A DNA stretch of 64,000 bases, taken from contig NZ_JALIQP010000002.1 in assembly GCF_023566055.1 (NCBI RefSeq), positions 434,001 through 498,000 of the forward strand, in the 5' to 3' direction. A program made the translations under genes and the position numbers. Below the pieces are notes generated by a model. It worked only from the letters and a program-made list of their open reading frames with translations, had not been told where the DNA came from and ran no database searches. Shown in pieces: positions 54,259 through 60,992 of this stretch. Positions within the stretch are counted from its first letter, which is position 1. Each line of letters opens with the position of its first letter. The stretch comes from Halosolutus amylolyticus. Its GTDB lineage: Archaea; Halobacteriota; Halobacteria; Halobacteriales; Natrialbaceae.

Positions 54259-54422
54259 GATCGATCGTAACCGACGCGGACGCAAAATCGTTCGGACGAC
54301 GGTGCGCGTGTCGTATGACGAGCCGAACACTCGCAGTCTATCCCACCGTGCTGGCAGCGAGTGCGCGGCCGATCGGGTCCACGGAACGATCACGGAATGA
54401 CGATCGCGCTGGTCCATCACAA

Positions 54423-54432
54423 TGTTTTTATC
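54423..54432 (+). promoter_or_regulatory. TATA box of thrS, far upstream
   Basis: tgtttttatc, the only good TATA element before thrS. It predicts a start near 54454 and hence a leader of about 150 bases, unlike the leaderless pattern of most genes here. Confidence 0.5.
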
Positions 54433-54459
54433 CCGTACGAGACTACGCGTATCCACGAT

Positions 54460-54581
54460 GGTAGGTGTCCGCTTTACAGGGGCTCTCGCCCGCTTCTAAC
54501 CTACACCTACCGCTCTCTGTGTCCGGATCGCCCCACAGTGAGCGGGACGCGGACTACCGATCGAACTTCTCACCGAAGTTC
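54460..54581 (+). promoter_or_regulatory. Structured 5' leader of thrS (three stem-loops)
   Basis: Hairpin 1: ggtaggtgt (54460-54468) with acacctacc (54503-54511), perfect 9 bp. Hairpin 2: cgctc-t-ctgtg (54511-54521) with cacag-t-gagcg (54534-54544), ten pairs and one T-T mismatch. Hairpin 3: gaacttc (54563-54569) with gaagttc (54575-54581), loop tcacc. They fill the predicted leader between promoter and ATG. Candidate cis-regulatory RNA; the loop of hairpin 3 contains ACC, a Thr codon. Confidence 0.55.
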
Positions 54582-54604
54582 CCAGATCAGCCACAGCCAT
54601 AGCC

Positions 54605-56548
54605 ATGTCAGAATCAGACTCACAGGAGCAGATCGCGGTCGTACTGCCAGACGGATCCGAACTCGACGTCGACCCAGACGCGACGGTCGAGGACTGTGCC
54701 TACGAGATCGGGCCCGGCCTCGGGAGCGACACCGTCGCCGGCAAACTCGACGGCGACCTCGTCGCCAAAGAGGAACCCGTCTACGACGGCGCCGAACTCG
54801 AGATCGTCACCGACGGCAGCGAGGAGTACCTCGACGTGATGCGCCACTCCGCGGCCCACTGTCTCGCCCAGGCCGTCGAGCGCCACTACGACGACGTCGA
54901 CCTCGCGATCGGCCCGCCGACCAACGAGGGGTTCTACTACGACTTCGACAACTTAGACGTCGACGAGGAGGACCTCGCGCACCTCGAGAGCGAGATCGAG
55001 GAGCTCATCGAGGCTGACTACGACATCGAACGCGAGGAGGTCTCGATCGAGGAGGCCGAGGAGCGACTCGCCGACGAGCCCTACAAACTCGAACTCTTAG
55101 CGGAGTTCGCCGACGAGAACGACACCGTCACGTTCTACAGCCAGGGCGAGTGGGAGGACCTCTGTGCCGGCCCGCACGTCGATTCGACGGGCGAGATCGG
55201 CGTCGTCGAACTGCTCGAGATCGCCGGCGCCTACTGGCGCGGCGACGAGGACAACCCGATGCAGACGCGTATCTACGGGACGGCCTTCGAGGACGAGAGC
55301 GACCTCGAGGCGTTCTTAGAGCGCAAGCGCGAGGCCGAGAAACGCGATCACCGCCGCATCGGATCGGAGATGGACCTCTTCTCCATCCAGGACGTGACGG
55401 GGCCGGGCCTGCCGCTCTATCACCCCGCCGGGAAGACCGTCCTGAAGGAACTCGAGGCCTTCGTCGAGAATCTCAACGAAGAGGCGGGCTACGACTACGT
55501 CGAGACCCCCCACGTCTTCAAGACGGACCTCTGGCACCGATCGGGCCACTACGAGAACTACGCCGACGACATGTTCATCTTCGACGTCGGCGACGACGAG
55601 TTCGGCCTGAAGCCGATGAACTGCCCCGGCCACGCCGCCATCTTCCAGGACCACTCCTGGAGCTACCGCGACCTGCCGATCCGGTACGCCGAGAACGGGA
55701 AGGTATACCGGAAGGAGCAACGCGGCGAACTCTCCGGACTCTCGCGCGTCTGGGCGTTCACGATCGACGACGGCCACCTGTTCATCCGCCCCGACCAGAT
55801 CGAGCGCGAGGTCGAGGAGATCATGGACATGATCACGGACGTCCTCGAAACGTTCGACCTGGAGTACGAGATGGCGCTGGCCACGCGGCCCGAGAAGTCG
55901 GTCGGCTCCGACGAGATCTGGGAGAAAGCCGAGGCCCAACTCGAGAGCGTGCTCGAGGCCCACGGCCACGAGTACGAGATCGAGGAGGGCGACGGCGCGT
56001 TCTACGGCCCGAAGATCGACTTCGCGTTCGAGGACGCGATCGGCCGCTCGTGGGACGGCCCGACGGTCCAACTCGACTTCAACATGCCCGAGCGGTTCGA
56101 CCTGAGCTACGTGGGCGAAGACAACGAGGAGCACCGCCCGGTCATGATCCACCGCGCGCTGTACGGCAGCTACGAGCGGTTCTTCATGATGCTCATCGAG
56201 CACTACGAGGGGCGGTTCCCGCTGTGGCTGGCTCCCGAACAGGTCCGCGTGCTGCCGATCTCCGACGACAACCTCGGCTACGCCCACCGCGTCGCGAACG
56301 AGTTCGACGACTTCCGCGTCGAGGTCGACGACCGCGACTCCACCCTCGAACGGAAGATCCGCGCGGCCCACGACGATCGGGTCCCGTACCAGATCATCGT
56401 CGGCGACAACGAGGAGGAGGCCGGCAACATCTCCGTCCGCGATCGCTTCGAGGACCAGGAGTACGACGTCGCGATCGACGAGTTCCGGGCGCACCTCGAA
56501 GCGGAGCGCGACGAACAGCGGACGGAACCTGACTTCCTGCAGGACTGA
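54605..56548 (+). CDS. thrS: Threonyl-tRNA synthetase (bacterial-type domain order)
   Basis: 647 residues. TGS domain (about 8-70), the AlaX-like editing domain with H81-x3-H85 and C187 (D-L-C-A-G-P-H), the class II catalytic core (R-M-x-x-E motif region around [15 protein letters not shown]; motif 3 [11 protein letters not shown]) and an anticodon-binding domain. This is the bacterial architecture, not the archaeal one with a D-aminoacyl-deacylase-like N-domain. It charges tRNA-Thr. Preceded by an unusually long structured leader. Confidence 0.96.
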
Positions 56549-60797: not shown

Positions 60798-60834
60798 CGT
60801 CATCACCGCGGGCGTTTCCTGGTTCAATCCGAGA

Positions 60835-60849
60835 CGGGGCGACGCCCCG
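60835..60849 (-). promoter_or_regulatory. Hairpin in the L15e leader
   Basis: cggggc (60835-60840) and gccccg (60844-60849) around a three-base loop gac, about 40 bases before the L15e ATG. Candidate site for ribosomal protein autoregulation; no proof. Confidence 0.35.
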
Positions 60850-60992
60850 CGGATCACATCCCGTCCTGTGGCGGCGTCGTGCCGAACAGGTGCCCGCTGG
60901 TGCCCGCGACCCAGCGAGTCTGCCAAAACGTATCCAGCGGTCGTGTATAAGCGCTTCGAACCGTCGAGACGGGACGGGAGCCGATCGATCCC

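Follow-up and report, generated by a model that had tools for sequence, protein, structure and literature searches.

The pheST leader of Escherichia coli is a bacterial leader-peptide attenuator on a synthetase gene. E. coli thrS is controlled through an operator in which ThrRS binds a tRNA-like RNA near the ribosome site, and the T-box leaders of Gram-positive thrS and thrZ read threonyl-tRNA charging by direct tRNA binding. Attenuators have furthermore been predicted for trpS and leuS in Streptomyces (PMC1262725). In Haloferax volcanii, uORFs in long 5'-UTRs have been described before the gene of tryptophan--tRNA ligase HVO_A0127 (23 aa) and before pheS, HVO_2948 (26 aa) (PMC4983044). The passages of that report concerned with these uORFs call them small proteins, give only their lengths (15-31 aa), do not list thrS among the genes, and offer no interpretation in terms of cognate codons, an RNA switch or an attenuator. 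In searches of the open-access literature, we found neither leader-peptide attenuation nor threonine-responsive leaders in archaea; a sequence-only reading of the locus analyzed here likewise knew of no archaeal precedent for a thrS leader.

The haloarchaeal thrS leader described below resembles the bacterial synthetase attenuators in its short leader ORF with a cognate codon (ACA, one conserved codon), at which a ribosome would decide between RNA helices, and in its proposed control of a synthetase gene. However, it is archaeal, its uORF is predicted to be leaderless at the 5' end, it has one conserved Thr codon and no clear terminator, and the 5' arm of its proposed switch lies within uORF codons 1-4.

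The thrS leader and its distribution

The window, i.e., the whole stretch of 64,000 nucleotides of Halosolutus amylolyticus DNA that was analyzed, encodes a threonyl-tRNA synthetase of 647 aa at 54605-56548 on the forward strand, as are all window features given below unless stated otherwise. The product scores 671 bits against TIGR00418 (cut-off 384) and contains the TGS, tRNA_SAD, core (tRNA-synt_2b) and anticodon (HGTP_anticodon) domains of Pfam, which bears out the previous assignment of the gene as a bacterial-type thrS. It is 93% identical to the ThrRS of Natrinema limicola, and the genome belongs to family f1, whose named members include Natrinema, Natronococcus, Halopiger, Natrialba, and other Natrialbaceae. 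The TATA element, previously placed about 175 bases before the ATG, is found as TTTTTAT at 54425-54431, 174-180 nt before the thrS start at 54605. The 3 proposed stems are present as well, with 9 bp (54460-54468/54503-54511), approximately 10 bp including one mismatch (54510-54521/54534-54545), and 7 bp (54563-54569/54575-54581).

Compared with 200 dinucleotide shuffles, the leader (54423-54604) has a more stable predicted fold than 195 (-59.2 versus -49.8 +/- 4.2 kcal/mol, z -2.2), so that its predicted single-sequence fold is only moderately unusual. Although chance folding of an ordinary 5' region could give such a moderate advantage over shuffles, a covariance model (R1) of the leader's proximal part matches 132 of 392 haloarchaeal genomes, once per genome and with E-values down to 4e-24, and the helices carry compensatory changes. 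The genome comparison thus refutes chance structure, to which we assign a negligible probability. The existence of the structured leader, as first observed, is confirmed, and the view of it as long and regulated-looking gains support from its retention across haloarchaea with compensatory changes.

The leader is linked to ThrRS genes. All 27 matches away from known thrS places (7 pattern matches holding TTTACA and 20 model matches) precede a ThrRS gene. At one of these genes (L281 in genome G283, reverse strand), the leader precedes an archaeal-type ThrRS (NF003068, 828 bits) instead of the unrelated bacterial type, which indicates that the element follows function and not a single gene lineage. 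A tree of 36 ThrRS sequences places the leader-bearing copies in 2 clades with a leaderless clade between them (2 label changes). At least 3 genomes (G147, G242, and G349) combine a leaderless main thrS with a second copy that has the leader. Among 80 named thrS loci, the motif was found in 18 of the 19 haloarchaeal ones, the exception, at a contig end, being a match that begins inside the gene, and in none of the 61 non-haloarchaeal ones. The phylum-wide model search matched 22 of 392 genomes, all within the same order; since the share of the 392 that lies outside this order is not given, this says little about absence elsewhere. In 2 nearly complete genomes of genus g15, within the same family (G197 and G344), the leader is absent, and the only ThrRS match among those listed is a distant one (E ~1e-43).

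The predicted leaderless uORF and its threonine codon

The key part of the leader that the sequence-only reading missed is a short ORF, conserved in frame, in which an ACA Thr codon is invariant. As judged from the sequence comparison, the thrS leader is a real, conserved, and ThrRS-linked element with a previously unrecognized, predicted leaderless uORF. In the window, this putative leader peptide, MVGVRFTGALARF, is encoded by 13 codons at 54458-54499 (from 54458: ATG GTA GGT GTC CGC TTT ACA GGG GCT CTC GCC CGC TTC TAA), with the putative regulatory ACA as codon 7 at 54476-54478. Such a uORF is present in 102 of 110 thrS upstream regions, these being from genes among the matches listed for the 392 haloarchaeal genomes searched; 100 of them fit one pattern, and 2 (L018 and L049) are longer variants.

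The TATA-like element starts 33 nt 5' of the uORF ATG. In 6 of 7 leader family groups, AT content peaks at -32 to -34 relative to this ATG (-40 in f17), and in the 8 thrS upstream regions without uORF, the pooled AT peak lies approximately 31 bases before the thrS start itself. The TATA-to-uORF distance is like that of the uORF-less thrS genes and is the spacing expected of a leaderless transcript. Judged by this spacing alone, the uORF would be suitably placed for the transcription and translation that an attenuator requires.

In 107 leaders (the 100 together with 7 second thrS copies), codon 3 is GGT, codon 6 TTT, and codon 7 ACA without exception; as the pattern fixed the frame and allowed TTY and ACN, only the free bases count as evidence for invariance. 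The 7 second copies were chosen for TTTACA in the pattern match, matches with other third bases resembling ordinary coding sequence. With 20 additional leaders, detected by a model for which 35 of the 107 had served as input, TTTACA is in frame in 127 of 127 tabulated leaders, ACA being codon 7 in 123 and codon 8 in 4. The start is further upstream by one codon in 4 leaders (L267, L274, L281, and L283) and by many codons in L018 and L049, which do not match the pattern and are outside the 107; in all 6, the ATG is in frame with TTT ACA. Both codons are rare: in filtered window genes, ACA accounts for 25 of 728 Thr codons (3.4%) and TTT for 30 of 414 Phe codons (7.2%), while the thrS coding sequence uses ACA for 0 of 20 Thr and TTT for 0 of 29 Phe codons. 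A longest-ORF set was dropped for this count, being contaminated with antisense frames.

The encoded peptides are 10-18 residues long across families, with mostly 13- and 14-codon forms in Natrialbaceae. Among 35 distinct 13-codon uORFs, codons 1-4, 6, and 7 are invariant, and at codons 12 and 13, 11 of 12 minor alleles each differ in the third base. Across families, only G3, F6, and T7 are kept; position 4 is V, G, D, or E, position 5 is R, C, Y, or H, and the stretch after the Thr differs in length and sequence. One-nucleotide neighbors in codons 8-13 comprise 14 synonymous and 17 non-synonymous changes, which suggests that the peptide as a whole is weakly constrained. With no other residues retained and the length variable, codon identity and RNA seem to matter more than the peptide. 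This bears on the idea of an arrest peptide, in which the uORF product would stall the ribosome by its own sequence in response to an effector other than tRNA charging. Such a peptide would be conserved up to the arrest site. The ARF end before the stop, kept within Natrialbaceae with codons 12-13 changing almost only at the third position, and the 3 residues common to all families would fit this idea, but the variation of positions 4 and 5 and of the C-terminal stretch between families makes it very unlikely. 

Matches of the peptide-end pattern in other families (L111, L112, L118-L120, and L130, among the matches listed) were rejected as uORFs, as these conserved sites are promoter-like and lie 24-25 bases 5' of the ATG of another gene. 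A conserved TTTCACTTTC-type promoter-like element is located at these loci approximately 50 bases 5' of a gene of unknown function.

Helices of the leader and the proposed attenuator

Helix A is formed by uORF nucleotides 3-12 and the sequence just 3' of the stop. Its 5' arm (54460-54468) lies in codons 1-4, where it overlaps the 5' side of helix B, and its 3' arm (54503-54511) directly follows the uORF. In 35 sequences from several families, 85% of the cells are paired and 16 cells show double changes; 0 of 500 shuffles attain the covariation score. Helix A also covaries in a 56-row alignment, with double changes at 6 of 10 pairs, though this alignment was fitted to its own model. Pairing in this register is poorer in some leaders, among them the second copies L211-L213. 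Hairpin 2 (54510-54545), whose first two C are shared with the 3' arm of helix A, has 91.5% of cells paired and 32 double-change cells, with all 500 shuffles scoring lower.

Helix B pairs uORF codons 3-5 (54464-54472) with a segment approximately 50 nt before the thrS ATG (54549-54558) in Natrialbaceae-type leaders. The RNAalifold consensus of 44 Natrialbaceae leaders picks helix B over helix A; 85.7% of its cells are paired, with 5 double-change cells and all 500 shuffles scoring lower, and some codon-5 variants (CGC and CGT, as well as TGC in genera g20/g23) are matched by the distant element. Best-helix scores are 21.5 versus 14.8 +/- 2.6 after shuffling in 71 f1 leaders and 23.0 versus 12.9 in 8 g20/g23 leaders. 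In contrast, there is no signal in 9 f7 leaders (13.2 versus 12.9) or 5 second copies (13.0 versus 15.1), and helix B is weak in 3 f10 leaders. The score is also low (12.2) in 6 leaders with GTC TAC (4 f1, 1 f7, and 1 f10), which counts against helix B there. Helices A and B overlap and would exclude each other; both covary in Natrialbaceae, and outside this family A alone is supported. Helix B appears, from the sequence comparison, to be confined to Natrialbaceae.

Conservation by compensatory changes holds for the first 2 of the 3 stems of the sequence-only reading. Hairpin 3 (54563-54581, 7 bp) is present in only part of the family: of 86 distinct Natrialbaceae-type leaders, 29 have the exact stem, and the loop is not conserved, with ACC in 14 of these 29. 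The proposal that this ACC loop senses tRNA or the synthetase is accordingly rejected, and the earlier interpretation as a whole is partly supported. Scanning 54380-54660 against Rfam with E-values up to 10 yielded a lone match to a nematode snoRNA family (E 6.5). Elsewhere in the window, Rfam identifies an eL15-Euryarchaeota ribosomal protein leader (RF03144) at 60816-60890 on the minus strand, with 41.1 bits (gathering score 33.7).

These data also bear on direct autoregulation, in which ThrRS or tRNA-Thr would bind the leader RNA and the short ORF would be a by-product of conserved RNA. In the E. coli thrS operator, the gene is likewise controlled by its leader, through an anticodon-like hairpin beside the ribosome site; the haloarchaeal leader instead has a conserved uORF and no conserved anticodon-like loop, and an SD-like motif was found in just 1 of 80 f1 leaders. 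The T-box leaders share with the proposal made here the readout of charging and, in some genomes, a second, regulated thrS copy. However, the Rfam scan gave no match to a T-box or a Thr leader, and sensing would be performed by the ribosome. Although GGU and UUUACA are invariant at the nucleotide level, which is more than a peptide requires, the helices show compensatory changes, and ThrRS retains its N-terminal domains, the uORF frame survives insertions and start shifts, the element also occurs before the unrelated archaeal-type ThrRS, and the pheS and trpS leaders described below differ in sequence yet carry their own cognate codons. We therefore consider direct autoregulation unlikely.

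The conserved uORF with its invariant ACA shifts the likely sensor from binding between RNA and tRNA or protein to ribosome stalling. We favor as probable that the thrS leader is a ribosome-mediated attenuator, in which stalling at a hungry Thr codon of a leaderless uORF changes thrS expression. Transcription would begin no more than a few bases from the uORF ATG, and the uORF would accordingly be translated from a leaderless transcript. Codons 1-4 of the uORF would double as the 5' arm of helix A and, in Natrialbaceae, codons 3-5 as the 5' side of helix B. When threonyl-tRNA is scarce, above all the ACA-reading isoacceptor, the ribosome would wait at codon 7 and cover the 5' arm, thereby blocking helix A (and B) and raising thrS expression. 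When it is plentiful, the ribosome would reach the stop and leave, the freed 5' arm would form helix A or B, and expression would be held down. With the usual footprint, a leaderless ribosome stays on the 5' arm from initiation until past about codon 9-10, so that a ribosome waiting at codon 7 would keep both helices open. That the uORF is translated, that ribosomes stall in it upon threonine shortage, and that stalling raises thrS expression are inferences; what the comparison across genomes itself shows is the conserved frame, the invariance of the rare Thr codon, the spacing to the promoter, helices A, B, and 2, the linkage to ThrRS, and the parallels in pheS and trpS.

Control may act at the level of transcription or translation. 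A T-enriched stretch after helix A (0.31 versus 0.16 over the leaders) would allow termination; long T runs are rare, and a run of at least 5 T is absent from most leaders. That a waiting ribosome would raise expression follows conventional attenuator logic. Predicted accessibility of the thrS start under footprint masks (f1 group mean) is 0.603 with a stalled ribosome, 0.577 with one at the stop, and 0.583 for the free leader; as masking shifts it by at most a few percent, folding lends no support to this direction of control. Further points count against an attenuator: classical attenuators have more cognate codons than the one conserved Thr codon seen here; the UUU that precedes ACA is just as invariant, which codon sensing leaves unexplained; helix B is limited to one family; and the peptide as a whole is under only weak constraint.

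Leaders before pheS and trpS

Prompted by the uORFs of Haloferax volcanii (PMC4983044), we also inspected pheS and trpS in the genome of the window and its relatives. A Phe-rich uORF ending in GFGFFFAR, or close to that, precedes pheS in 6 of 9 genomes; in the genome of the window itself (G000, contig C1), the leaderless-looking uORF MASESRVRVGVVHQLPHRRSGFGFFFAR is found at 634-720 of locus L287 (forward strand). For the longer type of trpS, a uORF with one to three Trp codons is present in 6 of 6 cases (WRW in 5), of which one starts with GTG and one holds a single Trp. Here, an arm 5' of the Trp codons pairs with an arm 3' of them: on the same contig, uORF MTSALECPWRWQGPSRADSVAATGDAA before trpS 360871-361731 (L299, reverse strand) has a 13-bp hairpin flanking its Trp codons. 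The other trpS type has such a uORF in 0 of 5 cases. With the same criterion, hisS (5 of 6 loci; the sixth lies at a contig edge), ileS (5 of 6; the sixth match begins within the gene), and cysS (6 of 6) gave 2 chance hits, none of them conserved.

A motif, GACAGT[AG]TCG, was observed in or next to the 3' arm of the trpS uORFs (L295-L300); it is likewise located a short distance 5' of the pheS start in L286, and L289 and L290 hold closely similar versions.

Each of the thrS, pheS, and trpS uORFs thus contains codons for its cognate amino acid. In thrS and trpS, the 5' arm would be occupied by a ribosome at the hungry codons, whereas pheS has its Phe codons at the uORF end and hence a geometry unlike that of the other two. 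The uORFs of HVO_A0127 and HVO_2948 are probably relatives of the trpS and pheS leaders found here. Their description as small proteins (PMC4983044) would agree with a constitutive leader that is blind to threonine and whose uORF and hairpins only fix the thrS level or specify a small protein. Against such a leader, which we regard as improbable, stand the linkage to ThrRS, the invariance of the rare Thr codon, and the cognate codons of the pheS and trpS uORFs. That haloarchaea use leaderless leader peptides more generally for amino-acid-sensing attenuation, at thrS (ACA), pheS (GFGFFF), and one of two trpS (WRW), with the hungry codons of each uORF setting a stalled ribosome on one arm of a regulatory hairpin, seems to us more likely than not.

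If the attenuator reading is true, leader-peptide attenuation would extend to Archaea, with leaderless translation serving as the sensor: the logic of the trp and pheST attenuators would operate there from a 5'-terminal leaderless ORF, with archaeal ribosomes and RNA polymerase as the machinery. It would allow a direct test of how archaeal translation couples to transcription or to downstream initiation, and would provide a reason why some haloarchaeal synthetase genes retain long leaders. Through the pheS and trpS leaders, for both of which uORFs are already listed in Haloferax volcanii, the idea would be testable in a laboratory strain.
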